The notes below the pieces were generated by a model, which had not been told where the DNA came from, made no database searches, and saw only the letters and a list, made by a program, of their open reading frames with translations. The translations under genes were made by a program, and so were the position numbers. Shown one piece after another: positions 4,831 through 39,141 of a stretch of DNA of 40,184 nucleotides (position 1 is its first letter; each line of letters opens with the position of its first letter). Source of the DNA: a virus; the IMG/VR virus record IMGVR_UViG_3300007609_000045, positions 1-40,184 of that record. One strand, written 5' to 3'.

Positions 4831-4872
4831 TTTAAAGGAATGACTGCGCCTTAAAGACAGTCCCAAGTTTGC

Positions 4873-4956: not shown

Positions 4957-4960
4957 CTTT

Positions 4961-5035: not shown

Positions 5036-5039
5036 TATT

Positions 5040-5115
<76 letters not shown>

Positions 5116-5120
5116 TTTTT

Positions 5121-5195
5121 GGTCTCTTAGTATATCGGTGAGTACACTTGCCTGTCACGCAGGAAGGACGGGTTCGATTCCCGTAGAGACCGCCA
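5121..5195 (+). tRNA. tRNA-Asp(GUC)
   Basis: Acceptor GGTCTCT/AGAGACC, anticodon GTC in loop CTGTCAC, T-loop TTCGATT, encoded CCA. Confidence 0.95.
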
Positions 5196-5202
5196 TTTTA
5201 AT

Positions 5203-5277
5203 GCTCGGTTCGTCTATCGGTTAGGACGCTTGCCTTTCACGCAGGAAAGAGGGGTTCGATTCCCCTACCGAGTACCA
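5203..5277 (+). tRNA. tRNA-Glu(UUC)
   Basis: Acceptor GCTCGGT/ACCGAGT with a G-T first pair, anticodon TTC in loop CTTTCAC, T-loop TTCGATT, encoded CCA. Confidence 0.94.
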
Positions 5278-5282
5278 TTTTA

Positions 5283-5374
5283 GGAGAGTTGGCAGAGTCT
5301 GGTTTAATGCACCGCACTTGAAATGCGACGAACGGTAAAACGTTCCGAAGGTTCGAATCCTTCACTCTCCGCCA
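5283..5374 (+). tRNA. tRNA-Ser(UGA)
   Basis: Acceptor GGAGAGT/ACTCTCC, anticodon TGA in loop CTTGAAA, long variable arm, T-loop TTCGAAT, encoded CCA. Second Ser tRNA of the cluster. Confidence 0.95.
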
Positions 5375-5380
5375 TTTTAC

Positions 5381-5453
5381 GCGGGATTCCTCCTGGGAGA
5401 GGATTTTGCCTTCCAAGCAAACAGAATCGGTTCGAATCCGGTATTCCGCTCCA
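5381..5453 (+). tRNA. tRNA-Gly(UCC)
   Basis: Acceptor GCGGGAT/ATTCCGC (one wobble), anticodon TCC in loop CTTCCAA, short D-loop, T-loop TTCGAAT, encoded CCA. Second Gly tRNA. Confidence 0.93.
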
Positions 5454-5457
5454 TATT

Positions 5458-5533
5458 GGCTTTGTAGCTCAGTTGGTAGAGCACCTGTCTGAAGAATAGG
5501 GTGTCAGTGGTTCGATTCCACTCGAAGCCACCA
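5458..5533 (+). tRNA. tRNA-Phe(GAA)
   Basis: Acceptor GGCTTTG/CGAAGCC, anticodon GAA in loop CTGAAGA, T-loop TTCGATT, encoded CCA. Confidence 0.94.
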
Positions 5534-5537
5534 TTTA

Positions 5538-5613
5538 GGGGATATAGCTCAGTTGGTAGAGCAGTAGGCTTTTAACTTATTGGTCCTCGGTTCGAGTCCG
5601 AGTGTCCCCACCA
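5538..5613 (+). tRNA. tRNA-Lys(UUU)
   Basis: Acceptor GGGGATA/TGTCCCC, anticodon TTT in loop CTTTTAA, T-loop TTCGAGT, encoded CCA. Confidence 0.95.
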
Positions 5614-5619
5614 TATTAT

Positions 5620-5695
5620 AGCACCATAGTATAACGGTTTATTACGGACGACTGATAATCGTTTGATCCAAGTTCGATTCTTGGTGGTGCTACCA
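5620..5695 (+). tRNA. tRNA-Ile(GAU)
   Basis: Acceptor AGCACCA/TGGTGCT, anticodon GAT in loop CTGATAA, T-loop TTCGATT, encoded CCA. Confidence 0.94.
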
Positions 5696-5700
5696 TATTA

Positions 5701-5777
5701 GGGTCTTTAACTCAGTTGGCTAGAGTGCAATCCTTACAAGATTGAAGTCGTTGGTTCGAGTCCAACAAGACCCACCA
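5701..5777 (+). tRNA. tRNA-Val(UAC)
   Basis: Acceptor GGGTCTT/AAGACCC, anticodon TAC in loop CTTACAA, T-loop TTCGAGT, encoded CCA. Confidence 0.95.
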
Positions 5778-5783
5778 TTTAGT

Positions 5784-5857
5784 TGGCCCGTGGTGTAATG
5801 GTAACACTACGCACTTTGACTGCGTCATTCTCCGTTCAAATCGGGGCGGGCCTGCCA
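5784..5857 (+). tRNA. tRNA-Gln(UUG)
   Basis: Acceptor TGGCCCG/CGGGCCT with a T-T mismatch at the first pair, anticodon TTG in loop CTTTGAC, T-loop TTCAAAT, encoded CCA. Confidence 0.92.
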
Positions 5858-5862
5858 CTTTA

Positions 5863-5870
5863 GATAAATA
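5863..5870 (+). promoter_or_regulatory. late promoter element 5 bases before the ATG
   Basis: GATAAATA followed by TTTTT and the ATG at 5876. If used as a T4-type late -10 element, transcription would start at or next to the start codon. Confidence 0.6.
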
Positions 5871-5875
5871 TTTTT

Positions 5876-6064
5876 ATGCCAGTTAAAAAATGTTCAAATG
5901 GAAAGTGGAGAATCGGTTCAGGCGATTGTATGTATCATACCAAAGAAGATGCTGAATCAGCTTATGCTGGTTACAGAGCTCAAAAGTATGGTGAAGAATA
6001 CACGCCAACAGAAGCCGAAGCCATCCGCGAACTCATCAATAAACTCATTAACAAACATCAATAA
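5876..6064 (+). CDS. small conserved phage protein (K-C-x-NGKWRIGSG)
   Basis: 62 residues, beginning MPVKKCSNGKWRIGSG and continuing C-M-Y-x-(T/S)-K-E-x-A-E-x-A-Y, a pattern found in short proteins of many T4-like phages; its role is unknown to me. The first 40 residues carry the motif and the rest is a charged helix. There is no Shine-Dalgarno before the ATG, but a GATAAATA late element ends five bases upstream, pointing to a leaderless late message. An overlapping frame at 5898-6080 is its shadow. It sits between tRNA-Gln and tRNA-Arg. Confidence 0.8.
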   Translation: MPVKKCSNGKWRIGSGDCMYHTKEDAESAYAGYRAQKYGEEYTPTEAEAIRELINKLINKHQ

Positions 6065-6070
6065 ATTTTT

Positions 6071-6148
6071 GCCCCTGTAGCTCAGTCTGGATAGAGTACT
6101 GGTCTTCGAAACCATGGGTCGGAGGTTCGAATCCTTCCGGGGGCGCCA
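6071..6148 (+). tRNA. tRNA-Arg(UCG)
   Basis: Acceptor GCCCCTG/CGGGGGC (one wobble), anticodon TCG in loop CTTCGAA, T-loop TTCGAAT, encoded CCA. Last tRNA of the cluster. Confidence 0.94.
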
Positions 6149-7352: not shown

Positions 7353-7513
7353 TGTTCGGACTATTCAAGAAAGACCCAGTAAAGCAGGCAAAGAAAGACT
7401 ACAAGCACACACTGGAGTTGGCACAACAAGCACAGCGTTCAGGTGATATCAAACAGTATAGTTTTTTGATGGAAAAAGCTGAAGTATTTAAGAAGGATGC
7501 AGGTATAAATTAA
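7352..7513 (+). CDS. DUF6435-like small helical protein
   Basis: 53 residues starting MFGLFKKDPVKQ and continuing with a helical segment 'A-Q-R-S-G-D-I-K-Q-Y'. This resembles the short DUF6435-type proteins of gammaproteobacteria ('MFG.FK.DP ... AQRNGDI..Y'), whose function is unknown. GGAGG lies about nine bases upstream. The ATG overlaps the previous stop and the TAA overlaps the glyA start, so three genes are translationally linked. Confidence 0.7.
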   Translation: MFGLFKKDPVKQAKKDYKHTLELAQQAQRSGDIKQYSFLMEKAEVFKKDAGIN

Positions 7514-8652
7514 TGGATAAAAGAGTTAGAGAAATACTAAATGCTGAACAACGTAGACAATTTAAAACTGTTGAACTTATTGCCAGTGAAAACTTTGCAA
7601 GCCAAGCTGTTATGGATTTGGCAGGTTCAGTGTTTACCAACAAATATGCTGAAGGATATCCGGGCAAGCGTTACTACAACGGTTGTGAGCATATGGACGA
7701 GATTGAAACACTTGCTATCGAAGAACTAAAGAAACTATATAGATGCGAGTTTGCTAACGTTCAACCACACTGTGGTGCTAATGCTAACACAGCAGTATAT
7801 CAAGCATTCCTAAAACCCGGTGATAAGATAATGGGCATGGACCTAGCAAGTGGCGGACACTTATCGCATGGTTCTCCAGTAAACATCTCAGGTAAGGTCT
7901 ACAACGCAGTACACTATGGCGTAGATGAGAACGGATGGTTGGACTATGATGCTATTGAAGAACTGGCATACAGAGAAATGCCTGCTATGATTGTTGCTGG
8001 CGCTAGTGCGTATCCACGTGCTATCGACTTCAAACGCTTCCGTGAGATTGCTGACAAAATCAACGCATATCTATTGGTTGATATGGCACACTACTCAGGA
8101 CTAATCGCAGGAAGAATTTATCCAAGCCCTGTACAGTATGCTGACTTTGTTACAAGTACTACACACAAAACACTACGTGGACCTAGAGGCGGCATTATAC
8201 TTTGGAACAATCCTGACTACACAAAGAAGATCAACAGTGCTATCTTCCCTGGTACACAGGGCGGGCCGTTAATGAACATCGTAGCAGCCAAAGCACAAGC
8301 GTTTATAGAAGCCAACACACACGACTTTAAAGACTACGCAAAACAAGTTGTAGTCAACGCAAACGAAATGGCAAAAGTATTTGTAGAAAATGACTTCAAA
8401 CTCTTGACAGGAGGTACAGATAGTCATATACTATTACTAGACTTGAGCGAAAGTAAATATTCAGGTCGTGAAGCCGCAGACTTACTGGAGGAGAACGGCA
8501 TCACAGTAAACAAGAATGGCGTACCAAATGATCCACGTTCGTTTGTAGAAACAAGTGGTATCAGACTTGGCACAGCCGCAGAGACTACACGAGGCAGGGA
8601 TGCTGAATGGTTTAAACAATTAGCAGAAAGAATCGTGGAGATATTACGATGA
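7513..8652 (+). CDS. glyA: serine hydroxymethyltransferase
   Basis: 379 residues, somewhat shorter than the roughly 415-residue bacterial enzyme, mainly at the C-terminus. It has the family's landmarks: ELIASENF near residue 21, YAEGYPGKRYYNGCE at 45-59, the DMAHYSGLIA segment near 190, and the PLP-binding lysine (K219) in TSTTHKTLRGPRGG. The enzyme converts serine and tetrahydrofolate to glycine and 5,10-methylene-tetrahydrofolate, the one-carbon donor for dTMP and for hydroxymethylated pyrimidines. The phage may use it to feed nucleotide synthesis; no thymidylate synthase is in the window. Translational coupling (TAATG) links it to the gene before. Confidence 0.97.
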   Translation: MDKRVREILNAEQRRQFKTVELIASENFASQAVMDLAGSVFTNKYAEGYPGKRYYNGCEHMDEIETLAIEELKKLYRCEFANVQPHCGANANTAVYQAFLKPGDKIMGMDLASGGHLSHGSPVNISGKVYNAVHYGVDENGWLDYDAIEELAYREMPAMIVAGASAYPRAIDFKRFREIADKINAYLLVDMAHYSGLIAGRIYPSPVQYADFVTSTTHKTLRGPRGGIILWNNPDYTKKINSAIFPGTQGGPLMNIVAAKAQAFIEANTHDFKDYAKQVVVNANEMAKVFVENDFKLLTGGTDSHILLLDLSESKYSGREAADLLEENGITVNKNGVPNDPRSFVETSGIRLGTAAETTRGRDAEWFKQLAERIVEILR

Positions 8653-22846: not shown

Positions 22847-22854
22847 CATAAATA
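22847..22854 (+). promoter_or_regulatory. late promoter element of the tail block
   Basis: CATAAATA 38 bases before ATG 22893, upstream of the long run of tail and fibre genes; AGGA precedes the ATG. Confidence 0.6.
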
Positions 22855-22892: not shown

Positions 22893-25800
22893 ATGGCAAA
22901 ACAAGACATTTATTTAGGCGTTGAGGGCAATGACGGAACTGGAGACAGTATTCGAGAAGCCTTCCGCAAAGCAAACGAAAACTTTACAGAACTATATGCA
23001 GTTTTCGGCCAAGGTGGAACAATTAGTTTTACCGCGCTCAATGATACTCCGACTGGCATTACAGCAAACGGTGTATTGATTGGTAACTCTACAGGTACTG
23101 AATTAATACAAAAAACACTGTCGGCTGGTGATGGTATAAGCATCGACAATTCAGGCGAAACTAATATTACTATTACCAACACCGGTGCCAATATTAATGC
23201 TGATACGTCGCCTATTTTAGGTGGACCGTTGAGCGGTAACAGAGTTTACTCTATTGGACTTATTGCAACATCACCAGAAGCCATTAACGAATTCAATACT
23301 ACACATGGTAGTTCGATTACTATAGACGATCTTGTTACAGATAAAAAATTCCAAGATCAGTACTATGCTCCAAACGTTACTACAGAAGAAACAAAATCAG
23401 TATACGCAAGAACAGAACCTAGTAATGCAGGTGAATACACAAAATCAATCAGTGAGTACAGAAGCGGAAATGTCGTAATTAACGATCACGGATTTGATTG
23501 GAGTTCAAACGGAACTAAATGGAAATTTACCGCTACTGACACTTCTCCAACCGGACTAACTGATAACACAGATTATTATATTCGATTTGTTAATGAAGAT
23601 CAAATCAGTTTACATACTTCTAAAGAAGAAGCACAAAATAATAATGATACTACTAGACAAAAAATTAACATTGCACTAGGAAGCACAGTTACTCCTACAG
23701 GACAAGATCAAGTTAGAGACACTGCATACGACGATGCTTTATTTGGATTCTATAGAGACAATGAAGCACTTCCAAGAAAGTCTGCTGTCAGACGTCAAGG
23801 CGATGACATGGAAGGAGCATTATACTTACACGATCATCCAGGCGATTTAGCAGGTACAGACACTGGCGACATCAACGACAAACAAGCTGCTACGAAACTA
23901 TATGTTGACAATACGTCGTATGCATCGACAGAAGATTTATTTGTTACAAAGCAAGGCGACGACACGCAACTAAGAACTCCAGTTGGGTTAGAAGGGCGAG
24001 GACTTTCGTATGCATTTGGAAGTTTGAAAGCAGCATGTCAAAAAGCAGAAGAAATTATGGAGTCTGCACCTATTGAAGCAGGTGCATACAAACAGACAAT
24101 TACATTTGACGACGGCGACGGTATTTCCCTTGTAACTTCGGTAGGAGTCACAACAGCCAATGCTGCCGCTGAAAATGCAATTACATATCTAAGAGAAAAC
24201 AAAAAGTTCATTCAGAAAGCTGTAATTGATTATGTAAACGACACATTTCCTACTCTTGCGTATGAAGATACTAATGTAGTAAATCCTAATGCAGAAGCAA
24301 CACTGTTTAGAAATAAAGAGTTTATTCAAAACGAAGTTACTTCTTGGATTAACAATAATATTGGAAATGCTACTACAGGCAATACATGGTTTGAATTTAG
24401 TTACAGCCAGCCAAAGTGTTTTAGAGATACAGGATATATTGTTGATGCATGGATTAATGATCTATCAAAAGGCGGAAACTTAGAAACACGTAGAGTTGCA
24501 GCAAGTTATCAAGCAGGTAGACAAAACGCTGTTGACAATGCAGATATCGGAACTCCGGATCAAATTGATGAAACAAATCTAGCAATTGAATTTGCTAGAG
24601 ACTTAGTTAAGAATTATGTATTAACAAACACAACTTATACAAGTCAACAAGACAAGTTTGTAGTTGATGATACTGATTTAACAGTTAACCAGTTCAAAGT
24701 TTATATGGGAGCAGGTAGAGGTACGATCACATATAACAACGGTGGTACCGTAAATGGATCTTTACTAGTAAGCACATTTACTTACAATAACACAGACGGA
24801 TTCGCTACTATAGTCACAGCAACTAACCACGGACTAAGTGCCAGTGATGAAATTACACTTGCTAGCTTAAATGTAACTATTGACGGCGAAGCGGTTGTAT
24901 TTCCAGAAACATATGCACAAGTAGACACAGGATTAACTTGTGAATCGGGTTCCGGAGTTAGTGATGTTATCGGCAGAGCTGACACATTAACATCTGTTAT
25001 TACTGATGTTATTTCAAACGGTATTGACGCACTTGTAAACTATCCACCAGAAGGGCCGTCAGTGCCTAACAATACTTGCGAACGAGATGTTGGATTAATC
25101 ATTGATGGTATGATTCTTGATATCGGGAACGGAACCAATGCAAACTATCATGCTTTACAATCTGCAAAACGATATTTTAGTACACCTTCAGGTGCTAAAG
25201 CACGAGTCACACAACAAACAGAGACACTAGCAGCTATGGCTAGAGCCAAGTCAATTGTAAGAAATGTTGTATCTAACGTTGACTTATTGACTCAGTCAAA
25301 AAGATTTGCTGTTTTGGGTACAGGATTAACATCTACTTCATTCCAAGTAAACATCGGAGATGTTGATCTCATAGATTATATTAGCGGTGGAACAGTTGAC
25401 GGTACATTAAATATTACAAATTTCTTATATGATAGTGACACAGGAATCGCTACAATAACAGTAAGTACAGCACACGGACTAGGTGTTGGTAGTGTAGTAG
25501 TACTAGACGGAGCAGTCTTTACATGGACGGATAGAGAAGGAACTAAAGTGTTCCCAACAGACTACACTACTTTGATTCCGCAATGGTTAGACAGTGATAT
25601 TAATGATGTATCAAATACTGTTAAAAACGCATTAGATGCAAAATTTGATATTATTATTGATATCCTTACAAACGGATTTAGTGCGGTAAGAAACTATACG
25701 CTAGTTGAAGGCACTACATATACAGTTGATTTTAGCAACGGTGTTGGAAACGATAGTACGGATCAGGGCATTAACACCAATGTTGACATTTTACCTGGTA

Positions 25801-28800
25801 AAATTATTACTGGTAAAACTTCAGGTGCTAGAGGTAGAATTGTAAAATACACAAGCGGCGTCGATTTAGGAGGCGAAGCATTTGACAGAACTGAAGTAGT
25901 TCTAATTGAGCCTACTGAATTTAGAATTGGTGAAGAGTTAGAGTACGGAAATCCGACAGTTGAAAAACAAATTTGTATTCATGTAGAATCTGGAATTTAT
26001 TACGAAGATTATCCAATTAAAGTTCCTGCAAACGTATCGATTAAAGGTACTGATTTTAGACGCTGTCAAATTAGGCCTGCACCTAGAATATCACAATCTC
26101 CGTGGGTCGATACTTACTTTTACAGAGACAAGTTATTAGATAACTTAAAAATTACAGATTGGTACGGTCCTGATTTAGCAACACCTCAAGACATTAGCAT
26201 TACAGGAACTAACGAAGCCGGCGGAACAATTACTGTAACACCAGCTGATAACATTTCACCTATTAGTTGGGACGGACAATGGTTCTATACTGATAGTGGT
26301 GCTGTTGGTTTAATTAGTAATGCCGACGGTGCAAGCAGTTTTGAGGTTACACTAACTGTAGATGTATTACCAAACTTAAACAACATCAGTTCAGGCGAAT
26401 GGCATATTAAGTCCACAAGAAATTATGGATACCATTACCTAACTGATCCAAACGATCCAACTAGTACTCCTAAGCGGAATGATCAGTTAGATGTGTTTTT
26501 GATGAATGATGCAACACGACTTGCAAATATGACATTCCAGGGACATGGCGGATTTGCACAAGTACTAGATCCAGCAGGGCAAATTTTAATTAAATCACCC
26601 TACACACAAGTTTGTGGTAGTTTCTCCGGAAGTATTAACAAACAGGCGTTTAGGGGAGGTATGTTTATTGATGGATTTGCAGGAAACTTAGAAACCGTAA
26701 TTACTAGCAAAGACGATAACTATACACTGAATGTTCAGTCTGCTGCAGGAACAGGTTTAAGATTACGTAAACCACAAACACCTGCACCGTTCTTTATTAA
26801 CGGTGTTCGATATCAAGTCGATGCTATTGCAGAATATGATGGCGGCACTGGTACGGCTAAACTGTTAATTAATAAACTTTCGAACGAAGGTAATGGCTAT
26901 ACAGATACTACATTCCCGCAAGAAATCTTTGTTCAAACAGCTGGTAACAGAAGTATGCTAGCAAACGACTATACACAGGTTAACGATTTAGGATATGGTC
27001 TATTTGTTAACAATGCTGCATTGTCAGAGCAGGTTAGTACATTCTGTTATTACAACCATATTGCATTCTTTAGCAACAATGGTTCAGAAATTAGAGCTCT
27101 TAACTGTTCTAACGCAAACGGTAACTTTGGACTGGTTGCGGCGGGTTCAGACCCTAACGAAACATTAGATGTTGTTACGTCTTTGCGAAACATGCAACAA
27201 CCTGCTAAAGTTTATAATGACCCTACTGACACATTTGGGTTTGGTGAGTTTAACCACAACGCAGGTAACTTTAGTGTATTTGTTTATGATTGTGATTACC
27301 ATCCTTATGCTAACAGTTTAGTAGACGTGTATACTTCTACGGGTGTTCAAACTTACGAAGTTACGGCTGTTGCGGAAGTAAGTGTTCCGGTATCAAACAG
27401 TGGAGGATATTCGGGTGCTACTGGTCCAACAGGACGTCGTGGCACAAATCAAAAGATTTATAGATTAAGTATATCCGGCGATTCGGGATTAGAAGAAGCA
27501 ATCACAGGTTTACACAATATTAATTTAGCAAGTGACGACTCACCATATGTAACAATACGTATGAATAAGAATCATTTGTTTGATGATGTAGCAGGTGTTA
27601 CAAGCATTCGACCTTCAACAGCGGTTATCTTTGATGAAAATCCAGATCGAGTTTATAGAAGTATTAGTTTTAATAACCAAGACTCGGACAATTCGGCTCT
27701 TCCTGCAGATAGATTTCAAGTTGTATTCGATACAGGTTTTAATCATGTAAACCTAACTATGAGAAACACCGAAGCGGCATTAAACACATATGCAGGCGTT
27801 GGTACTACGATGGGTGCAACAGCAGGTGACGTTGTACTTGCTATTGAAAAACTTACAGACAAATTAATTGATCGTGTTAATAACAACGACATGATCTTTA
27901 CATATGCTGGTAAGACTCATACGGTGGCAAACTACACTGATAGAGGAAGTTACGCAACTGTAGAACTTAATGATTTAGCTGGCTCTAATATTAACAGTGA
28001 TGGCGGATTATTTAGTGCAGGCGGACTTGCTGATAGAATAACATTTACTGATGATTCTACTCGTACTGTTCCTCTTTCGTTACAAGATAATGAAAATGCA
28101 TCAATTACGGTTGGTATTTCAACTCTAAGAGCTAATGGACACGACTTTGATAAAATTGGTACTGGCGGATTTAATACTACAAACTATCCAAGTATTATTT
28201 ACGGTGAGCCAACTAAATCTGCAACACAAGCCAACGAGGTAAGCGAAAGAGGCAAGGGTCGTGTGTTCTTTGCTAGTACTGATCAGGACGGATTCTTCCG
28301 TGTAGGTAAGTTCTTTAGCGTAGATCAAGGAACAGGTACAGTTACATTTGCCGCTTCTATTGCAATTAGTAATCTTGACGGTCTTGGATTCAAACAAGGT
28401 GTACGAATTACTGAATTCTCAAATGATGACACAATGGCTGATGGGGATCCTGCTGCAGTTCCAACAGAGTTTGCCGCGGAAGGATTTCTATCTCGCAGAC
28501 TACATTTTGATAGAGGTGGCATTAAATTAACAGCTGGAACAATTGGTCCAGGTGCATTAGCACGAGACGGCACTACAGAAATGACCGGCAATCTTAATGC
28601 TGGCGGTTATAAAATTACTAATGCTGCAGACCCAACAAATCTACAGGATTTAACAACTAAGTCTTATGTCGACATTAGAACTCCGTTTGGAAACGAAGCT
28701 ATCGGAACAGCTACCGGTAACAAAGAAACTAACGACATATTAGTTTGGGACGGGTCTACTTACGATAATGCTACACCGGCCGGCGACATTGAAATTAGTG

Positions 28801-30062
28801 TATCAGGCAATGTTGCAACCTTTGCTATTACAGCTGATTCGATTGTAAATGCTGATGTAAATTCTAATGCTGCAATTGCGCAAAGCAAATTAGCAATGAC
28901 TCCTGCAAGCACTAGAGCAAGTGCAAGTGGTATTACACAAGCTGATTTAGGTCTTGCAAGTTTTGACAGTGATGACTTTGAAGTTACAAACGGTTGGGTA
29001 ACCCTTGCAGAAAATTCAGTAGATCTAACAGACTTGCCCGAGCTTGATCAATATGAAGCATATGGTAGACAGACAGCCAATACTGGCGATCCTGAAATTG
29101 TAACTTATGCAGACATTGTAGAGAACGGTGGTTCATTTACAACCGCAGGTGTTGCAGACAGGATTGTTAAGACTGGAACAGATGGTAGAATTGATGCACA
29201 AAGTTATTACTTGGATAACTTTAAGATATTAGATCAAACATCAAATACAATGACCATGACAACACCAGGTGGTTCTAAAGTATTTGACACAGTTGGTAGT
29301 ATTCCAAGTAATACTACTACAACATATCCAGGCACAATTCAAATTGGTAATACTAGTTCTACAGCATCGTTCTTCCAACAGAACAGTAGTTACGGTGATC
29401 CGGGTGATGCTACACAAAATTCACCAAGAATTTCTTCAGACTGGATGTATACTTCGTTTATTGAAGCACCAGGTGAAAAGGGTGCTTCAAGTACTGGTAT
29501 TGCTATTGGTGCTGGTACTGGATTTAGTAGTGCTGGACAAGTTGCTATTGTTGCTAATAACAACGTTGCTGCTATGATTTTTAAACAAACAGCAGTTACA
29601 CCAAGTACAAATGGTGGATACGATATTGGTACAAACAGTTTAAAGTTTGGTACATTCCACGGTACTGCTACATCAGCCCAATACGCTGATTTGGCGGAGA
29701 ACTATTTAGGAGATGCTAATTACGAACCAGGTACTGTATTAGTATTTGGCGGTAATGAAGAAGTTACTGTAACAAACACCAAAGGTGACCGAAGAGTTGC
29801 AGGTGTTGTATCAACGAATCCAGCGCACTTGATGAATGTTGATTTAGAAGGTGATCATGTCTTAGCATTAGGACTACAAGGAAGAGTTCCTTGTAATGTT
29901 ATAGGTCCAGTTGAGAAAGGCGATTTGCTAGTTACAAGTGCAATACCAGGATATGCAATTGTAGACAATAATCCTAAGATAGGCACAGTGATAGGTAAAT
30001 CAGTAAGCGTTAAAGACGACGGCGGCCGTGGCACAGTTGAAGTGGTTGTAGGGAGAGTATAA
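22893..30062 (+). CDS. giant tail-fibre/adhesin protein
   Basis: 2389 residues. The N-terminal module, residues 1-40 (V-E-G-N-D-G-T-G-D-S-I-R-E-A-F-R-K-A-N-E-N-F-T-E-L-Y), is shared with three other genes here. A unit of about 220 residues occurs twice (from about 503 and 725), each opening with 'C-x-R-D-x-G-x-I-x-D'. Around 1030-1500 the sequence looks like a right-handed beta-helix ('VPANVSIKGTDFRRCQIR'). A collagen-like 'GATGPTGRRG' follows near 1508. The C-terminus has 'YADLAENYLGDANYEPG' near 2262 and 'GRVPCNV', as in other marine phage fibres. It probably binds the host surface. Its TAA overlaps the next gene. Confidence 0.9.
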   Translation: MAKQDIYLGVEGNDGTGDSIREAFRKANENFTELYAVFGQGGTISFTALNDTPTGITANGVLIGNSTGTELIQKTLSAGDGISIDNSGETNITITNTGANINADTSPILGGPLSGNRVYSIGLIATSPEAINEFNTTHGSSITIDDLVTDKKFQDQYYAPNVTTEETKSVYARTEPSNAGEYTKSISEYRSGNVVINDHGFDWSSNGTKWKFTATDTSPTGLTDNTDYYIRFVNEDQISLHTSKEEAQNNNDTTRQKINIALGSTVTPTGQDQVRDTAYDDALFGFYRDNEALPRKSAVRRQGDDMEGALYLHDHPGDLAGTDTGDINDKQAATKLYVDNTSYASTEDLFVTKQGDDTQLRTPVGLEGRGLSYAFGSLKAACQKAEEIMESAPIEAGAYKQTITFDDGDGISLVTSVGVTTANAAAENAITYLRENKKFIQKAVIDYVNDTFPTLAYEDTNVVNPNAEATLFRNKEFIQNEVTSWINNNIGNATTGNTWFEFSYSQPKCFRDTGYIVDAWINDLSKGGNLETRRVAASYQAGRQNAVDNADIGTPDQIDETNLAIEFARDLVKNYVLTNTTYTSQQDKFVVDDTDLTVNQFKVYMGAGRGTITYNNGGTVNGSLLVSTFTYNNTDGFATIVTATNHGLSASDEITLASLNVTIDGEAVVFPETYAQVDTGLTCESGSGVSDVIGRADTLTSVITDVISNGIDALVNYPPEGPSVPNNTCERDVGLIIDGMILDIGNGTNANYHALQSAKRYFSTPSGAKARVTQQTETLAAMARAKSIVRNVVSNVDLLTQSKRFAVLGTGLTSTSFQVNIGDVDLIDYISGGTVDGTLNITNFLYDSDTGIATITVSTAHGLGVGSVVVLDGAVFTWTDREGTKVFPTDYTTLIPQWLDSDINDVSNTVKNALDAKFDIIIDILTNGFSAVRNYTLVEGTTYTVDFSNGVGNDSTDQGINTNVDILPGKIITGKTSGARGRIVKYTSGVDLGGEAFDRTEVVLIEPTEFRIGEELEYGNPTVEKQICIHVESGIYYEDYPIKVPANVSIKGTDFRRCQIRPAPRISQSPWVDTYFYRDKLLDNLKITDWYGPDLATPQDISITGTNEAGGTITVTPADNISPISWDGQWFYTDSGAVGLISNADGASSFEVTLTVDVLPNLNNISSGEWHIKSTRNYGYHYLTDPNDPTSTPKRNDQLDVFLMNDATRLANMTFQGHGGFAQVLDPAGQILIKSPYTQVCGSFSGSINKQAFRGGMFIDGFAGNLETVITSKDDNYTLNVQSAAGTGLRLRKPQTPAPFFINGVRYQVDAIAEYDGGTGTAKLLINKLSNEGNGYTDTTFPQEIFVQTAGNRSMLANDYTQVNDLGYGLFVNNAALSEQVSTFCYYNHIAFFSNNGSEIRALNCSNANGNFGLVAAGSDPNETLDVVTSLRNMQQPAKVYNDPTDTFGFGEFNHNAGNFSVFVYDCDYHPYANSLVDVYTSTGVQTYEVTAVAEVSVPVSNSGGYSGATGPTGRRGTNQKIYRLSISGDSGLEEAITGLHNINLASDDSPYVTIRMNKNHLFDDVAGVTSIRPSTAVIFDENPDRVYRSISFNNQDSDNSALPADRFQVVFDTGFNHVNLTMRNTEAALNTYAGVGTTMGATAGDVVLAIEKLTDKLIDRVNNNDMIFTYAGKTHTVANYTDRGSYATVELNDLAGSNINSDGGLFSAGGLADRITFTDDSTRTVPLSLQDNENASITVGISTLRANGHDFDKIGTGGFNTTNYPSIIYGEPTKSATQANEVSERGKGRVFFASTDQDGFFRVGKFFSVDQGTGTVTFAASIAISNLDGLGFKQGVRITEFSNDDTMADGDPAAVPTEFAAEGFLSRRLHFDRGGIKLTAGTIGPGALARDGTTEMTGNLNAGGYKITNAADPTNLQDLTTKSYVDIRTPFGNEAIGTATGNKETNDILVWDGSTYDNATPAGDIEISVSGNVATFAITADSIVNADVNSNAAIAQSKLAMTPASTRASASGITQADLGLASFDSDDFEVTNGWVTLAENSVDLTDLPELDQYEAYGRQTANTGDPEIVTYADIVENGGSFTTAGVADRIVKTGTDGRIDAQSYYLDNFKILDQTSNTMTMTTPGGSKVFDTVGSIPSNTTTTYPGTIQIGNTSSTASFFQQNSSYGDPGDATQNSPRISSDWMYTSFIEAPGEKGASSTGIAIGAGTGFSSAGQVAIVANNNVAAMIFKQTAVTPSTNGGYDIGTNSLKFGTFHGTATSAQYADLAENYLGDANYEPGTVLVFGGNEEVTVTNTKGDRRVAGVVSTNPAHLMNVDLEGDHVLALGLQGRVPCNVIGPVEKGDLLVTSAIPGYAIVDNNPKIGTVIGKSVSVKDDGGRGTVEVVVGRV

Positions 30063-30571
30063 TGGCACAACAAACTATAAACATTGGAACTAGTGCTAAC
30101 AAAGGAAACGGCGATCCTATTAGAACTGCGTTTAGTAAAACAAATGATAACTTTACAGAGCTTTATACTCGAGTACTAGCTGTTGAAAACGGTACAATTA
30201 ATGTTGTTGTATCAGACGTAAAAGGTAGTGTACATGCTGATGACAGTGCATTAATGATTGACGGTATATCTGCACAAATAGTTGGACCTGTAAATAACAC
30301 AAGTGTTACAACCACAACGCTTACAGCAACTAATATTATAGGTGATGTAACAGGAGATGTAACAGGAACAGTAACAGGATCACTTGTAGGTAATAGTACC
30401 GGTTATCATACAGGAGATATTACAGGTAGTGTGTTTGCAGATAATAGTACTTTACTAGTAGATGCAATAAATGGCGAAATACCAGGATATATAAGTTTAG
30501 CAACACTAAAAACAGAATTAGCAGCAAGCGTTGATTTTGCTGACTTCCAAACAAGAATTGCGGCATTATAA
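30062..30571 (+). CDS. small fibre-like protein
   Basis: 169 residues with the same N-terminal module as the giant protein ('GNGDPIRTAFSKTNDNFTELY'), then a Thr/Gly/Asp-rich repeat region ('GDVTGDVTGTVTG', 'GDITG'). A GGGAGAG ribosome site precedes the ATG, which overlaps the preceding stop. It is probably a partner or alternative fibre attached to the same site on the virion. Confidence 0.8.
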   Translation: MAQQTINIGTSANKGNGDPIRTAFSKTNDNFTELYTRVLAVENGTINVVVSDVKGSVHADDSALMIDGISAQIVGPVNNTSVTTTTLTATNIIGDVTGDVTGTVTGSLVGNSTGYHTGDITGSVFADNSTLLVDAINGEIPGYISLATLKTELAASVDFADFQTRIAAL

Positions 30572-30580: not shown

Positions 30581-32500
30581 ATGGCAAATAGAATTCCACT
30601 TATAGTTGATAGAGACGATCAAAACAGACTTAAAGAATTGCCTATAGGTGATAATCTTAATCTAACAGGAAGCGGTATTGTTGGTGCTGCTAATATTGAA
30701 GCAACCGGTCTTACTATTGCAGGAGTAAGTTATAATCCGTTTAGCGGAAGTTATAATGATTTAACTGACAAACCTGTTGTTGCTGCAGATACTGATGAAC
30801 TTGTAGAAGGTACTTCTAATCAATATTTTACTAATGAAAGAGTTGACGACCGTGTAGCTGCAATATTGAGAGAAGGAACAGGTATCGACATTACCTATGA
30901 TGATCTTAGTGCAACTATCACAATCACCGCAACAGGCGGAGGTAGTGGCGGTGGCGGAGACGGAATCACTACGAACTTAACTGGACTAGCAACTAATCAA
31001 GTTTTGAAATGGAGTGCAGCTGACGGAGCATGGGTAAACGGAAGTGTTGTTTGGTCTGAAATACAAAGCAAGCCAAACTTTGCAACTGTATCTATAACAG
31101 GCAGTTATAACGATTTAACTAACAAGCCTGAATTAGTTGACGACATAAGTGATCTAGCAGATGTTGATACAGCATCTAATCCTCCTATTACTGGACAGGT
31201 ATTAAAATGGGACGGTGCTAAGTGGGCACCAGCAGATGATATTACATCAGGTGGCGGCGGACTAGATGCTACAACACTTAGCGGCTTTGCTAGCTCATAT
31301 TATTTAGATTATAATAATTTTACCAACACACCTACACTGTTCGATAGCGAATTTAGCTCGTTGGTAGGAACCCCGACTACACTTAGTGGTTATGGTATTA
31401 CCGATGCTGTAAGTACCACTCAGAGTTACACTCAAAACGGATCCGTAGTCTTTAACAGCGATACTGGTATCATAGTAGGTACAAACGATAATATTAAAAT
31501 TCGTGTTGACGGTGATGCTATTTTTGAAACAACTGTTGACGAACAAGATTTAGATATTAATGTAAAGCCGATTGCTGGTGCAGTTACAGCAATTAAAATA
31601 GACACCGGAACACAGAGAGTAGGTATTTTTACAACAACGCCTGGAAGAAAATTAGATGTTGCAGGCGATGTTAATGCAACAGAGTACTACGGTAACGGTA
31701 GTAATTTGACAGGAATCACACTAGACAGAATAACTACACTAGGAAGTGAAACAAGTAATTCTGTAAGTTTTGGTGATGTAACACCATTCACAACTAACAC
31801 TTATAGCCTAGGTGCTAGTAATAATTATTTCCAAAATGCATATGCTAACAACTTTTATGGAAGTGGTGCTAATTTAACAAACATTCCTACAACAGCATTA
31901 ACTGGCAATATTGATTATACAGATAGTATAATCACAAACAAACCAACGATACCTACTAATAATAACGAACTTACTAACGGAGCGGGTTACCTTACAGGAA
32001 TAACTTCCGAAAGTATTAATAGTCTAGACGATGTTAATATTACTAGTGTAGCAAACGATGAGATTTTAAAATATGACAGTGCTACAGGTAAATGGATCAA
32101 CAGTGTAGGCGGGTCGACTGTAGGCAACTTTACATTTGCTAGCAGCAACATTGACACTGATGATTCTAGCGAAATTTCAGTCACACCGGCTGTAAGAATG
32201 AATAGTGATTTAACTGTTGAGAATGATTTAGTAGTTGACAATAATGTAACCGTAACCAAAATATTGTCTGTAGAACAAATTAATACTACTTCAACAGGTG
32301 CTCCTACTATTGAAAGTAACTCAAGCATTAATTTAAGTGCTGCCGATAGAGTAACTGTTAACCGAAGTCCATTAAATCTTGCTAGTTTCACAACAGCAGA
32401 ACGTAATGCTCTTTCAGCAACAAATGGTGATATGATTTACAATACTACTACTAATAAATTCCAAGGCTATGCAGATGGTTCTTGGGTAGATTTACACTAG
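30581..32500 (+). CDS. tail-fibre protein
   Basis: 639 residues. It has repeated 'S-Y-N-D-L-T-(D/N)-K-P' segments (near 56 and 172), 'Y-G-(N/S)-G-(S/A)-N-L-T' repeats and beta-rich sequence, all usual in phage tail fibres. A Gly-rich linker (GGGSGGGG) lies near residue 125. The C-terminal 'F-Q-G-Y-A-D-G-S-W-V-D-L' resembles fibre end domains. It lacks the N-terminal module of its neighbours, starting instead M-A-N-R-I-P-L-I-V-D. Confidence 0.85.
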   Translation: MANRIPLIVDRDDQNRLKELPIGDNLNLTGSGIVGAANIEATGLTIAGVSYNPFSGSYNDLTDKPVVAADTDELVEGTSNQYFTNERVDDRVAAILREGTGIDITYDDLSATITITATGGGSGGGGDGITTNLTGLATNQVLKWSAADGAWVNGSVVWSEIQSKPNFATVSITGSYNDLTNKPELVDDISDLADVDTASNPPITGQVLKWDGAKWAPADDITSGGGGLDATTLSGFASSYYLDYNNFTNTPTLFDSEFSSLVGTPTTLSGYGITDAVSTTQSYTQNGSVVFNSDTGIIVGTNDNIKIRVDGDAIFETTVDEQDLDINVKPIAGAVTAIKIDTGTQRVGIFTTTPGRKLDVAGDVNATEYYGNGSNLTGITLDRITTLGSETSNSVSFGDVTPFTTNTYSLGASNNYFQNAYANNFYGSGANLTNIPTTALTGNIDYTDSIITNKPTIPTNNNELTNGAGYLTGITSESINSLDDVNITSVANDEILKYDSATGKWINSVGGSTVGNFTFASSNIDTDDSSEISVTPAVRMNSDLTVENDLVVDNNVTVTKILSVEQINTTSTGAPTIESNSSINLSAADRVTVNRSPLNLASFTTAERNALSATNGDMIYNTTTNKFQGYADGSWVDLH

Positions 32501-32508
32501 GAGTTTAA

Positions 32509-34074
32509 ATGAGCGAAGTAGAATATGTAGTTACTCTAAAAAAAGATGTAAACTACGAAGAATTCAATCAAGAAATGATCGAAAATACAGGTGCTGGCAA
32601 CATTCCAAATAGAACAGTTGATGTAGCAAATGCAAGACCCGGCTCACAAAGAAATACGCATTATTCACTAACAGTAGAAGAAGCAGATGCATTAAAAAAT
32701 GATCCAAGAGTTTTAGATGTTGATCTTCCTCCGGATCAAAATCCTGATATCATACTTGAATTAAATTCAAGAGTTACAGGTCCTTTTTACAAAGGGACTT
32801 CTGAAAGTGGTCGATGGATTGACTGGGGCAAAAGACGTCATAGTATAACTACCGAAGATACAACATGGTCAACTTCGTTAGTAGGTAATCACGATTATAA
32901 TCTAGACGGAACAGGTGTTGATGTTGTAATACAAGATAGTGGACTACAAGTTGATCATCCAGAATTCCAAGATGCTAATGGCGTATCAAGAGTTCAACAG
33001 ATAAACTGGTATACTGAAAGTGGATTAAGTGGAACACAAAGTTCTAACCATTACAGAGATACAGACGGACATGGCACACACTGCGCAGGCACAGCAGCAG
33101 GACTTACATTTGGATGGGCTAAAAATGCAAGAGTATACAGTGTAAAGCTAAATGGCTTAGAAGGCACCGGCGATGCAGGCACAGGAATAAGCATTTCAGA
33201 TTGTTTTGATGTTATTAAGTTATGGCACAGAAATAAACCTATTGATCCGATAACTGGGCGTAAAAGACCTACCATAGTAAATATGAGCTGGGGTTACAGC
33301 ACAGGATACGGAACAGCAACTTCGATATTTTATAGAGGAACGTCGTATAGTTCTAGTAATGATGCTAGTTTTTCGAGTAGAACACATTTAAGAGATACAT
33401 ATGGCCTTTATCCATATTTTTCTAATGGAAATTATAGAGTTCCTGTCAGGATTACGTCAGTTGATACAGATGTACAAGAACTAATTGACGAAGGTGTACA
33501 TGTATGTATTGCCGCAGGAAATAATAGTTTTAAAGTAGACGTAGACGGAGGCGACGACTACGGTAATATTTTATTCTATACTAGCGGTAGCCGTTTCTAT
33601 CACAGAGGTAGTTCTCCTTATAGTACAGAGGCTTTTATGGTAGGCAGTTTACTCGCACAAAGTCCGACAGCAGATAATAAAGTTAGTTTTAGTACCTGCG
33701 GTCCAGGTGTAGACATTTATGCTGCAGGCAATAATATTGTTAGTTGTACAAGTAATACAAACAAATTTACTGATGCAACATACTGGAACGACAGTAACTT
33801 TAGACAGTGTAATATAAGTGGAACAAGTATGGCAAGCCCACAAATATGCGGTATTGGTGCATTATATTTACAAGCCAATCCAATGTTGACTCCAGCACAA
33901 CTAAAAACCATGATTCATAATGATAGTTCAGAAACACTACAAGCAGGATCATTGACCGGGTACGGCGACACAAACGATGCAATGGGCGGGCCAACAAGAG
34001 TTGCTGTAAGTAGATATAATAAACAAGTACCTTATACCAACACAGTATCAGGTAAATACAATATCAGGAGTTAA
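32509..34074 (+). CDS. subtilisin-like serine protease (S8 family)
   Basis: 521 residues. The catalytic triad is intact: Asp143 in QDSGLQVDHPEF, His188 in DGHGTHCAG, and Ser440 in GTSMASP, with the oxyanion Asn338 in IAAGNN. Residues 5-75 resemble an I9-type propeptide ('YVVTL ... LTVEEADALKNDPRVLDVD'), so self-cleavage is likely. There is no signal peptide. Placement inside the tail operon suggests a late, perhaps virion-attached protease that processes fibres or attacks host surface proteins. GGAG precedes the ATG; the next gene starts two bases after the stop. Confidence 0.93.
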   Translation: MSEVEYVVTLKKDVNYEEFNQEMIENTGAGNIPNRTVDVANARPGSQRNTHYSLTVEEADALKNDPRVLDVDLPPDQNPDIILELNSRVTGPFYKGTSESGRWIDWGKRRHSITTEDTTWSTSLVGNHDYNLDGTGVDVVIQDSGLQVDHPEFQDANGVSRVQQINWYTESGLSGTQSSNHYRDTDGHGTHCAGTAAGLTFGWAKNARVYSVKLNGLEGTGDAGTGISISDCFDVIKLWHRNKPIDPITGRKRPTIVNMSWGYSTGYGTATSIFYRGTSYSSSNDASFSSRTHLRDTYGLYPYFSNGNYRVPVRITSVDTDVQELIDEGVHVCIAAGNNSFKVDVDGGDDYGNILFYTSGSRFYHRGSSPYSTEAFMVGSLLAQSPTADNKVSFSTCGPGVDIYAAGNNIVSCTSNTNKFTDATYWNDSNFRQCNISGTSMASPQICGIGALYLQANPMLTPAQLKTMIHNDSSETLQAGSLTGYGDTNDAMGGPTRVAVSRYNKQVPYTNTVSGKYNIRS

Positions 34075-34076
34075 TA

Positions 34077-34769
34077 ATGGCAATTCAAACAGTAAATATC
34101 GGCACTATTGCAAACGACGGTACAGGTGACGATCTTCGAGAAGCATTTGTAAAAGTTAATAATAACTTTGCAGAGTTAGACAATAGGGACCCAGAAAAAA
34201 CTACTGGAGCAAATTTAGGTAGTAGTGGTGAAGGAGTCTTTGCACAATTAAGCGGTGCAGAAATGCAATTTAAAAAATTAGTTGCAGGATCAGCAGTCAC
34301 ACTTGCAAGTGACGGCAATGCTATTACTATAAACTCTACAGCGACCGGACTTCCGAGTTTACAGGTATTTGCTGACAATAATAACTTAACTCTAGATGCT
34401 AACAATAATGCGTTAACAATAGCAGGCGGAGGAACTACTACAACTAATCTTAGCGGTACTACTATTACCGTTTCTAGTTATACGTCTTTACAAACAGATA
34501 CTTCTCCTAAACTTACAGCAGATTTAGATGCGCAAACAAATAATATCTCTAATGTAGGCAACATGACCGGCCTTGTACATAATATTGACATTAGAGAAAT
34601 GGACGGTATTCAAGATTTTATTAACGGTATAGATCTAGGAGAAGTATTTCCAGAATCATTTGATAATATTTTGCAATATCTCGCACAAGACTTGTCCATA
34701 GACTTTGACGACGGTAGTGAAACATTTACTGGATCTACAGAGACGACCGCGGATATGGGAACCTTATAG
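34077..34769 (+). CDS. fibre-like protein with shared N-terminal module
   Basis: 230 residues opening with 'N-I-G-T-I-A-N-D-G-T-G-D-D-L-R-E-A-F-V-K-V-N-N-N-F-A-E-L', the same module as the genes at 22893 and 30062. The middle is Thr/Asn/Ser-rich and beta-like, and the C-terminus acidic. It lies immediately after the protease, with AGGAG before the ATG. Confidence 0.8.
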   Translation: MAIQTVNIGTIANDGTGDDLREAFVKVNNNFAELDNRDPEKTTGANLGSSGEGVFAQLSGAEMQFKKLVAGSAVTLASDGNAITINSTATGLPSLQVFADNNNLTLDANNNALTIAGGGTTTTNLSGTTITVSSYTSLQTDTSPKLTADLDAQTNNISNVGNMTGLVHNIDIREMDGIQDFINGIDLGEVFPESFDNILQYLAQDLSIDFDDGSETFTGSTETTADMGTL

Positions 34770-34779: not shown

Positions 34780-37740
34780 ATGGCCAATACTCTTTGGACC
34801 GTAAACACTGGACATAGTTTAGGAACATTTCAAGAAAGTTTAACACAAACTATTTCGCTGCCTGTGGTTAATACTGTTGATAGTATTTCTTTAATTAGCG
34901 GACAATTGCCCGGCGGGTTAAGACTTACTGGAACAGATTTAGTAGGAACACCGTTTGAGGTTAATGCACTAACAACATTTACTTTTGTTTTAAGAGCAAA
35001 AAAAGGCAGAAAACAAGAAGATATAACATTGAACTTGACCATAGACGGTCAAGACGAACCGCAATGGGTCACAGCCGAAGGCGATCTTCCGTTAGGTCCT
35101 AATAATAGATTTTATATTTTAGATAGTAGTCCAGTAGACTTTCAATTACAAGTTATTGATCCTGATCTTCCAACTGGAGAATCATTAGAATATTATATCG
35201 AAGACGACGGAGGAGAGTTACCACCGGGCATTACACTTGATAGAACTACTGGAAGGCTTACAGGAATTGTAGAACCCTTATTAGCATTAGAAAAAAGAGC
35301 AAATGCAGGTTACTTCGATACAAATTTATACGGCTCGTTTCCTTTTGATTTCGGAGTAAGAAGTTTCAATGGATTTGAAAGTTTTTTTTACGATACAACT
35401 TTTTATGATTTTGCTATTCCTACTCAAAGTCCAAAAAAATTAAACCGGTTTTATCAATTTACTGTTAGTGTAAACGACGGCGTTACTATTGCCAAAAGAA
35501 AGTTTAAAATTTATCTAGTAGGCGATGATTTTTTACGAACAGATAACACTATTATGCAACTTGCTACAGGGTTGTTCACAGCTGATAATACTTTCCTCAG
35601 AGCACCAATTTGGTTAACTCCTGGCGATCTGGGAATTAGAAGAGCTAATAACTTTGTTACATTATTTTTAGATGTATACGACCCAACTAGCAATCAAGGT
35701 ATTATTAGCTTTACCGTTAAAAACTCAAATCCAGACGGAACAGTAAGTGAATTACCTCCAGGAATGAGTATAGATAGTACCAGCGGAGAAATCACCGGGC
35801 GTGTTCCATATCAACCAGCTGTTACAAAAGAGTATAGATTTACCGTAGAAGCATTAAGACAACTAGGCAGTTCTTCGTCAACGTCGACACAATATTATGC
35901 AAACAATATAGGAGTAAACGCTGACTGGTCAGGAGATACTAATGTTCCATTTTTTAATTTTGCAGAAAATTTGTTTAATAGCAAAAATAACGAAACAGGC
36001 TGGATTGTTTTTAATGAAACTCCAGTAACCGAAATAGACGCAAGCGATAACAAACAATACGTAGCGTTAGATATAATTGACAAAAATGTATGGGCTATCG
36101 AGCAAGGAAGAGTCGTTGCAACATCAACAGACAAAGCTATAACAAAAATTGAAAAAGGTACAACAGACTGGTTAAGAGGAACCTTTATTGGAACTATAGC
36201 AAACGTTCTTTTTAGAACATTTGACAATGAAGGTAATGTAACAGCAAATAAAGTTGTGACTATGTCATTTTACGACTATCAAAAACGAGTTACATCAGAA
36301 ATTAATCCAACTGTAGCTAAAGATAAAACATTTACAGTAAAATTATTAGGTGAAGTTGAGAGTGCTATAAACTGGAACACTGAAACTGATCTCGGAAACA
36401 TTAGAGCTAACTTTGTTTCTACTCTTAGTGTAAATGCAACTAGTAATGTTCCTAATGCCGTTGTTCTTTATTCTCTAGACAGTGGAAAACTTCCACCAGG
36501 TATTACATTATCAATTGACGGACAACTACAAGGAAAAGTTAGACAGTTTGGAGAACCGGGACTTCCTGGATTGACAACTATTGACAAATCTACAACTCCA
36601 ACTACATTTGACGGTGCTACTACTACAATTGACAGAAGTTATACATTTACCGTGAAAGCACAGGATCAATTCCAGTTTAGTGCAACTACAAGACAATTTA
36701 CAATTACAACAACAGATCCAGACGATACACTTTATAGTAATATTACAATGGTTCCTATGCTTAAAAAAGATCAAAGAAATACATTTAGAAACTTTATTTC
36801 TGATCCTACAGTGTTTACTCCTGCAAGCATATATCGTCCCAATGATCCTACATTTGGATTGCAGTCAGAAATTAAAATTTTAACCTATGCAGGTATCGAA
36901 ACCAAAGACATCAGAGATTTTGTAGCAGCTGTAGCTAAAAATCACAAACGAAAAAAATATAAATTAGGATCAATAAAAAAAGCTGTAGCAAAAAATGTTG
37001 GTAGTAATGATATTGTTTATGAAGTGATTTATGTTGATCTAATAGATCCAGCAGAACCTTCTCTAGGAAAAACAAACGAAAGTTTTATTACACCTACTAA
37101 AAACAAAGTCACTGTAGACAGCATACAGTATGCGGTTACAGATGATAATACCGGTGTTGGTACAGGAGAAGGATTTTTTGAAATTGGTTTAAGGGGTGGG
37201 AATGGATTATCGCCGGCATCAACAGGCACTGTTACTTTATACACTAGAACAGGCCCAGTGCTATACACGCCAGGCGGTGCAATTAGTTTATTTTTGCAAA
37301 ACGGACAAGAAATTGGTGTAGCTAATATCGATGATAGTATTAGTTCAGACTCGTATAGGCTAAGACCAATTACAAATACTATCAAAATAGATTCAGATGC
37401 TATCAAAGTTAGCGACGGAGATGATCAAAGAAAATATATAAGTAATATCACTAATATGAGAGATAGAATTAGAGCACTCGGTAAAAACTTAAGAGACTTT
37501 TATCCGTTATGGATGAGGACCGCACAAAATGCCGGCGAAGCAGAACTAGGATTTACGCTAGCTGTACCACTGTGTTATTGTAAACCAGGAGAGGCAGACA
37601 ATGTGATATTGAATATTAATAACAGCGGTTTTAATTTTAAACAATTAGATATCGAAATTGAAAGATATAATATTGATGCTACAAATGGCAACAGTAATGA
37701 GCAGTACATACCGTTCGCAAATTATCAATTCAACGTATAA
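34780..37740 (+). CDS. large tail protein with Ig/cadherin-like repeats
   Basis: 986 residues. At least three repeats carry the 'L-P-P-G-(I/M)-(T/S)-(L/I)-(D/S) ... G-x-(I/L)-x-G' signature of putative Ig-like (He_PIG) domains (near 148-165, 324-345 and 566-585), and 'YxFTVxAxDQF' strands match the same fold. Ig-like domains on phage tails usually bind carbohydrates or receptors. The last 200 residues are different, with a 'PLCYCKPGEADNVILNINNSGFNFKQLDIEIERY' end. AGGAG precedes the ATG. Confidence 0.82.
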   Translation: MANTLWTVNTGHSLGTFQESLTQTISLPVVNTVDSISLISGQLPGGLRLTGTDLVGTPFEVNALTTFTFVLRAKKGRKQEDITLNLTIDGQDEPQWVTAEGDLPLGPNNRFYILDSSPVDFQLQVIDPDLPTGESLEYYIEDDGGELPPGITLDRTTGRLTGIVEPLLALEKRANAGYFDTNLYGSFPFDFGVRSFNGFESFFYDTTFYDFAIPTQSPKKLNRFYQFTVSVNDGVTIAKRKFKIYLVGDDFLRTDNTIMQLATGLFTADNTFLRAPIWLTPGDLGIRRANNFVTLFLDVYDPTSNQGIISFTVKNSNPDGTVSELPPGMSIDSTSGEITGRVPYQPAVTKEYRFTVEALRQLGSSSSTSTQYYANNIGVNADWSGDTNVPFFNFAENLFNSKNNETGWIVFNETPVTEIDASDNKQYVALDIIDKNVWAIEQGRVVATSTDKAITKIEKGTTDWLRGTFIGTIANVLFRTFDNEGNVTANKVVTMSFYDYQKRVTSEINPTVAKDKTFTVKLLGEVESAINWNTETDLGNIRANFVSTLSVNATSNVPNAVVLYSLDSGKLPPGITLSIDGQLQGKVRQFGEPGLPGLTTIDKSTTPTTFDGATTTIDRSYTFTVKAQDQFQFSATTRQFTITTTDPDDTLYSNITMVPMLKKDQRNTFRNFISDPTVFTPASIYRPNDPTFGLQSEIKILTYAGIETKDIRDFVAAVAKNHKRKKYKLGSIKKAVAKNVGSNDIVYEVIYVDLIDPAEPSLGKTNESFITPTKNKVTVDSIQYAVTDDNTGVGTGEGFFEIGLRGGNGLSPASTGTVTLYTRTGPVLYTPGGAISLFLQNGQEIGVANIDDSISSDSYRLRPITNTIKIDSDAIKVSDGDDQRKYISNITNMRDRIRALGKNLRDFYPLWMRTAQNAGEAELGFTLAVPLCYCKPGEADNVILNINNSGFNFKQLDIEIERYNIDATNGNSNEQYIPFANYQFNV

Positions 37741-37744: not shown

Positions 37745-37752
37745 GATAAATA
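37745..37752 (+). promoter_or_regulatory. late promoter element
   Basis: GATAAATA 22 bases before ATG 37775, giving a short leader with GAGAGGAAG as ribosome site. It could let the last tail gene be expressed separately. Confidence 0.6.
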
Positions 37753-38619: not shown

Positions 38620-39141
38620 ATGCTTATGAAAACAGACGAACTAGGTATTCCACGATTCTCTAATCGCGATCTCATTGATATGATCTATTCAGGTCATGCG
38701 GATAAAGTACATGTAGTGCTTTGTGATGAGCACAACGATGTAGACAAATTCAATGCTGCCATGCAAGAGCAGGGTTTAGATCCACTACAAAAATATATTC
38801 CCTTAGATGTAGATCAAAAGACTTTTGACGGTGTATGTCAAAGTGAATGGTTTATGCCTGAAGAATATAAAACACTAAACGTACATAACTATATTTTAAC
38901 GAAATGTGAGACACAAGAAGAAACAGCAAGATGTGCCGAAGAACTTGGAGAGTTTGCAAGTCGTAATATGATGCCTTTGTTACAGTATATGATCTATCTT
39001 GTTGACTTTATGCGTGACAACAACATTGTATGGGGTGTAGGACGTGGATCAAGTGTAGCAAGTTATGTGCTATACTTGATAGGTGTACATAGAATCGACT
39101 CAATTCAGTTTGACCTAGACTGGCGTGAGTTCTTGAGATAA
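38620..39141 (+). CDS. DnaE-palm-like fragment (DNA polymerase III alpha-related)
   Basis: 173 residues; ATG 38626 is an alternative start. From about residue 100 it resembles part of the bacterial replicative polymerase DnaE. A helix 'YMIYLVDFMRDNNIVW' leads to G-V-G-R-G-S-S (139-145), matching the G-x-G-R-G-S-A motif, followed by 'VLYLIGVHRIDSIQFDLDWREFL'. The catalytic Asp motif that follows in DnaE is absent because the protein ends there, so it cannot be a polymerase alone. It may bind nucleotides or interact with the replisome. The first 100 residues are unrecognised. Confidence 0.75.
   Translation: MLMKTDELGIPRFSNRDLIDMIYSGHADKVHVVLCDEHNDVDKFNAAMQEQGLDPLQKYIPLDVDQKTFDGVCQSEWFMPEEYKTLNVHNYILTKCETQEETARCAEELGEFASRNMMPLLQYMIYLVDFMRDNNIVWGVGRGSSVASYVLYLIGVHRIDSIQFDLDWREFLR

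Follow-up and report, generated by a model that had tools for sequence, protein, structure and literature searches.

The window analysed here, i.e. the whole stretch of viral DNA examined, is a linear IMG/VR record of 40,184 bases from a virus that infects aquatic bacteria. It contains, within a tail-fibre operon, a gene for a subtilisin-like protease (subtilase) of 521 amino acids (aa). The features of this region are the following:

22893..30062, plus strand: 2389-aa tail fibre protein, the first large gene of the fibre operon (phrog_9851 tail fiber, E 3e-47)
30062..30571, plus strand: 169-aa protein with a gp9/10-like segment at its N-terminus (Pfam, PHROGs)
30581..32500, plus strand: fibre-like protein of 639 aa, directly 5' of the protease (PHROGs, homologue comparison)
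32500..32503, plus strand: Shine-Dalgarno-like GGAG in the sequence, five bases 5' of the protease ATG and overlapping the stop codon of the upstream fibre gene
32509..34074, plus strand: S8 subtilase gene, 521 aa, phrog_9158 / T4-GC 292, ATG start and stop at 34074 (Pfam, PHROGs)
32509..32724, plus strand: predicted inhibitory/chaperone prodomain, residues 1-72, I9-like topology (AlphaFold2 secondary structure)
32725..32766, plus strand: low-confidence linker, residues 73-86, presumed autoprocessing region (pLDDT minimum at 81-85)
32767..34017, plus strand: catalytic domain, residues 87-503, proteinase K-like fold (VIA-align Z 38.0, Foldseek E 5e-19)
32935..32937, plus strand: catalytic Asp143, invariant in 65/65 proteins
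33070..33072, plus strand: catalytic His188, invariant in 65/65
33520..33522, plus strand: oxyanion-hole Asn338, invariant in 65/65
33826..33828, plus strand: catalytic Ser440, in the motif GTSMASP, invariant in 65/65
34077..34769, plus strand: 230-aa protein with a T4_gp9_10_N domain, directly 3' of the protease (Pfam E 1.9e-5; phrog_677 tail)
34780..37740, plus strand: 986-aa Ig-like (He_PIG) protein of the same operon (Pfam E 3.4e-18)

The protease frame is open from ATG to stop, and its product matched Peptidase_S8 in Pfam with an E-value of 7.8e-34 (117.7 bits versus a curated cut-off of 21.8). This match, together with the fold and the invariant triad described below, rules out a chance ORF or a pseudogene and confirms the intact subtilisin-like protease that a preliminary description of this DNA had claimed. 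Its placement between fibre genes was correct as well, with the 639-aa fibre-like ORF stopping 8 nt ahead of the protease ORF on the 5' side and the T4_gp9_10_N and Ig-like proteins on the 3' side. The 986-aa Ig-like protein had no match among isolate phages, and the six loci found for its comparison were too few for a presence/absence test. Late expression, which had been regarded as probable, is only suggested by the sequence: an ATAAATA late-promoter-like motif lies at 22848-22854, 38 nt before the 2389-aa fibre gene. Another one lies at 37746-37752, 22 nt before a gene for a 201-aa protein. Since the motif was not enriched in the window, where it was no commoner than in shuffles, we dropped it as support for a late promoter.

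The catalytic domain was assessed in an AlphaFold2 model of the window protein built with 37 sequences (mean pLDDT 86). In this model, residues 87-503 superimposed on ProteinT, keratinase, aqualysin I and proteinase K with Z-scores of 35-38 at an rmsd of about 2 Å, the best superposition on a proteinase K-type chain covering 275 residues at 2.0 Å. The affinity to proteinase K was judged by the ranking of both the closest sequences and the closest structures. Proteinase K/aqualysin-type S8 enzymes have the catalytic fold in common with the window protein, with about 31-34% identity over aligned residues, and the same triad order Asp-His-Ser, but these enzymes comprise 275-280 residues, and the catalytic region of the phage enzyme exceeds this by about 140.

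For the conservation of the active site, we aligned 65 distinct proteins, comprising the window's own and those of 80 viral contigs and nine cyanophage records. The preliminary description had stated that all catalytic residues are present, and D143, H188, N338 and S440 were indeed found, with the serine numbered correctly, and are invariant throughout the alignment; the window protein thus has the triad order and the oxyanion Asn expected of the S8 family. An apparent loss of the triad in cyanophage relatives, whose tblastn matches began at residue 201, was rejected because the full ORFs align from residues 4-6 and have kept both Asp and His. Pairwise dN/dS values of the window gene versus four relatives were 0.10-0.18, and neighbouring structural genes fell in the same range. 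The invariant residues and these values argue against a chance ORF and indicate that the activity is under selection; judged from sequence and model, the window protein is thus probably a proteinase K-like S8 protease competent for catalysis. Reuse of enzyme folds is common in phage tails, so the protein could also be a dead protease fold in structural or receptor-binding use. As none of the 65 distinct homologues departs from Asp, His, Asn and Ser at these positions, we discarded such a dead-enzyme scaffold and regard this use of the fold as very improbable.

The propeptide-like N-terminus of the preliminary description is supported by the model. Residues 4-72 are predicted to fold in the order beta-alpha-beta-beta-alpha-beta (E4-10, H16-24, E39-41, E49-54, H56-62, E68-72), which is that of I9-type propeptides, ahead of a flexible linker in which the pLDDT drops below 50 at residues 81-85, and residue 1 of proteinase K pairs with window residue 87 in the structural alignment. 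From these three elements, the layout appears to be that of a zymogen, with the N-terminal domain as the I9-type prodomain of a self-cutting enzyme, an assignment that draws on predicted topology. Inhibitor_I9 was the commonest Pfam match of the N-terminal domains in the family, but a weak one (4/20 homologues, best E 0.025); the N-terminal domain of the window copy had no Inhibitor_I9 match in Pfam, and a profile of the N-terminal domain gave no relevant match, and no propeptide, among PDB sequences. Proteinase K/aqualysin-type enzymes are secreted with a signal peptide. The phage enzyme, in contrast, lacks one, as had been noted before: no hydrophobic leader was found, the maximum Kyte-Doolittle value of the first 60 windows of 19 residues being -0.26.

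With regard to its relatives, the window protein matched phrog_9158 with an E-value of 9e-86 over residues 4-486, and the homologue PSSM2_297 (T4-GC 292) of phage P-SSM2 aligned by tblastn over window residues 6-474. The similarity to phrog_9158 / T4-GC 292 thus extends over the full length including the N-terminal domain, and, as in this family, the window gene lies in the tail region with another tail-type gene immediately before it. The cyanophage proteins of this family (P-SSM2 PSSM2_297, S-H38, S-CREM1, Sf-FR1, S-WAM2) have the same architecture of N-terminal domain plus S8 domain, which in the best matches extends over about 90% of the length, the same triad and the same location in the tail-fibre region, but are only 24-35% identical to the window protein. 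All relatives from isolates, again in this identity range, belong to cyanomyoviruses or to virus records from marine single cells; they are annotated as 'subtilisin-like serine protease', 'peptidase', 'hypothetical protein' or 'baseplate wedge subunit'. An S8 peptidase, T4-GC518, was also described for P-HM1 and P-HM2 by Sullivan et al. (PMC3037559). We found no functional study of any phage tail subtilase in the literature. The window protein adds a new and divergent member to a family of cyanophage tail proteases that is annotated but uncharacterised. Typical cyanophages carry psbA, whereas none was detected in 26 long records related to the window protein, most of which are fragments; six of these 26 records contained a T4-type major capsid gene. 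In one contig (L022, 6981-8996), a second S8-like protein of 671 aa, strongly diverged, lies in tandem directly upstream of the S8 homologue.

The protease gene was located in the tail-fibre or baseplate region in every annotated case examined, and in 64 of the 65 distinct homologues a same-strand ORF ends at most 60 nt 5' of the protease start. Such adjacency fits equally well with the main rival to a host-directed enzyme, namely a maturation protease that cuts the neighbouring fibre or baseplate protein(s) while the particle is assembled and might then remain in it as a by-product: nearly all homologues have a fibre-type gene immediately 5' of the protease, and cytoplasmic synthesis with a prodomain would suit a timed activation. 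The upstream partner ORFs, however, are mostly fibre-like proteins from several families without detectable similarity between lineages. One type is represented by the 639-aa protein of the window with the C-terminal motif NGDMIYNTTTNKFQGYANGAWVDLH, a second one is glycine-rich and ends in GAVRIIWPG, and a third and a fourth type occur in cyanophages. Since the partner types vary, the protease seems to be tied to the fibre locus rather than to a single fibre; and since they fall in several dissimilar families, no conserved substrate in cis is seen, which speaks against maturation.

Further evidence comes from the C-termini. Most homologues, and also the window protein, in which no binding domain was recognised, end shortly past the S8 domain. 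Six distinct homologues have more than 250 extra C-terminal residues: S-SCSM1 gp144 carries two Laminin_G_3 (ConA-like lectin) domains behind S8 according to Pfam, S-MbCM7 an esterase-like region and a cupredoxin-like domain with weak Pfam scores, contigs L042/L043 repeats and a domain resembling the cupredoxin one, and L037 and L077 a C-terminal domain common to both. In addition to these six, L085 has a cupredoxin-like insertion close to the C-terminus. Lectin, cupredoxin-like and esterase-like additions suit an exposed virion protein and would be unexpected in an assembly protease. The cupredoxin (plastocyanin-like) domain is another exchangeable module: in different phages it is found repeatedly, fused to S8 and also in tail proteins encoded nearby (L005, L042/L043 and L085; also L002:10788-14072, L034, L059, L063, L074, L079 and L083).

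The presence of such a protease in virus particles can be addressed with S-SCSM1 gp144, a protein of 1411 aa that shares the N-terminal domain, the S8 domain and the tail operon with the window protein, but differs from it by its two lectin domains. It is annotated as baseplate wedge subunit and bears the note '(virion protein)' in NC_070962. By hand count over the whole genome, 47 CDS of this record are tagged in this way; NMNAT and a translational repressor are among them, whereas terminase and several hub proteins lack the tag. The published mass spectrometry of S-SCSM1 gives 45 virion proteins, one of which is likewise NMNAT (PMC9602691). Judging from these numbers and the contents of the tagged set, the tag most likely marks the mass-spectrometry set, and the S8 homologue gp144 is therefore probably present in purified S-SCSM1 virions. 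For S-CREM1, whose virion proteome comprises 14 proteins, the peptidase is not reported there in the main text (PMC9964418). Packaging on the tail, as proposed in the preliminary description, thus gains support from the conserved placement at fibre genes, the fusions to binding-type domains and the S-SCSM1 tag, the last of these through a probable match of tag and proteome. Since the S-SCSM1 prohead protease is likewise tagged as virion protein, presence in the particle is also compatible with a maturation role. The same observations bear on a protease acting inside the cell, which would degrade host or phage proteins or aid lysis and whose position in the tail operon would be incidental. Subtilases can be broad-specificity enzymes and the phage protein is made without a signal peptide, as such an effector would be, but the conserved tail-operon position, the virion tag of the homologue and the fusions to binding-type domains make this explanation improbable.

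Taken together, we propose a tail-mounted, autoprocessing protease that would cut host surface proteins at adsorption, a reading which we consider about evenly balanced between right and wrong. The protease, which has no signal peptide, would be synthesised in the cytoplasm, the I9-type prodomain would inhibit it and aid its folding, and self-clipping would occur in the linker around residues 75-86. The enzyme would be incorporated into the tail beside the product of the fibre or baseplate gene immediately 5' of its own and, in the released particle, could cut host surface proteins, e.g. surface-layer or outer-membrane proteins, during adsorption, much as tailspike depolymerases cut polysaccharides. 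For this phage, we infer catalytic activity, autoprocessing, presence in the particle and the host-surface target alike. A precedent is the virion peptidase of PhiNIT1, which is directed against a host surface polypeptide (PMC5380687); it acts on the poly-gamma-glutamate capsule and may be likened to the window protease by function only. The preliminary description had left fibre maturation and the cutting of host surface proteins side by side as possible functions; because the fibre partner changes and surface-type domains occur at the C-terminus, the sequences favour a host-surface target, and we consider maturation of fibres or baseplates rather unlikely.

Part of the family carries an additional module. 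In contigs L025, L086 and L087, a segment of about 315 aa interrupts the S8 protein behind residue 153, and the viral contigs L110-L189 carry the module as well. Two examples are:

L025, 8053-9000: module of about 310 aa
Syn33 NC_015285, 76262-77188: the same module in a baseplate-wedge protein, between gp9 and gp8

Used alone as query, the module had 184 relatives in viral contigs, the best 80 of which are 76-100% identical; 27 of the proteins carrying these best 80 are S8-related and the rest fibre-like or unassigned. S8-related carriers have it either after residue 153, in loops elsewhere or C-terminally, and its carriers are of several unrelated types, with baseplate proteins besides S8 proteases and fibre-like proteins; diverged S8-like proteins carrying it occur in L160, L168, L172, L177 and others. 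In isolate cyanophages, it is 80-90% identical and occupies a single place per record (85/85), and ten of 11 large module-bearing contigs have one copy, the remaining one showing a second, partial and more distant match. Since the DNA identity of modules reaches 92% between carriers of different similarity groups, the sequences point to recent movement of the module. An intein in L025, L086 and L087 was rejected, as the usual terminal residues were missing by eye and the same module is C-terminal in other S8 proteins and in fibres. The module had no match in Pfam, PHROG or NCBIfam and its fold no confident match in the PDB, the VIA rows being mostly zinc metallopeptidase chains with Z of at most 5.5 and an rmsd above 4; by tblastn, it is absent from the window. 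Carried by some members of the family, it offers a lead of its own on tail proteins built from exchangeable parts.

Known virion enzymes for cell entry mostly cut polysaccharide or peptidoglycan. As a tentative generalisation, which we hold possible, aquatic T4-like phages may have in common a widespread class of subtilases that are mounted on the tail, activate themselves and digest proteins of the host surface, as the proteolytic equivalent of tailspike depolymerases. In some members of this family, the S8 scaffold would also be one carrier among several alternative ones for the mobile module of about 310 aa, of which a genome usually has one copy. If this were true, a protein layer would be a barrier or receptor worth digesting for abundant aquatic phages. 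The cultured cyanophages S-H38, P-SSM2 and S-SCSM1 carry the same kind of protein and thus make direct testing possible.

Other genes were also noted in the window. A 173-aa protein of the tail region (38620-39141) matches no more than a fragment of bacterial DNA polymerase III alpha (Pfam DNA_pol3_alpha, E 1e-9; phrog_11127, E 4e-45) and is far too short for a polymerase. The gene at 7513-8652 encodes a serine hydroxymethyltransferase (NCBIfam NF000586, E 6e-170), labelled 'methyltransferase' in PHROGs, and 20 tRNA genes are clustered within 3.4 kb at 2751-6148.
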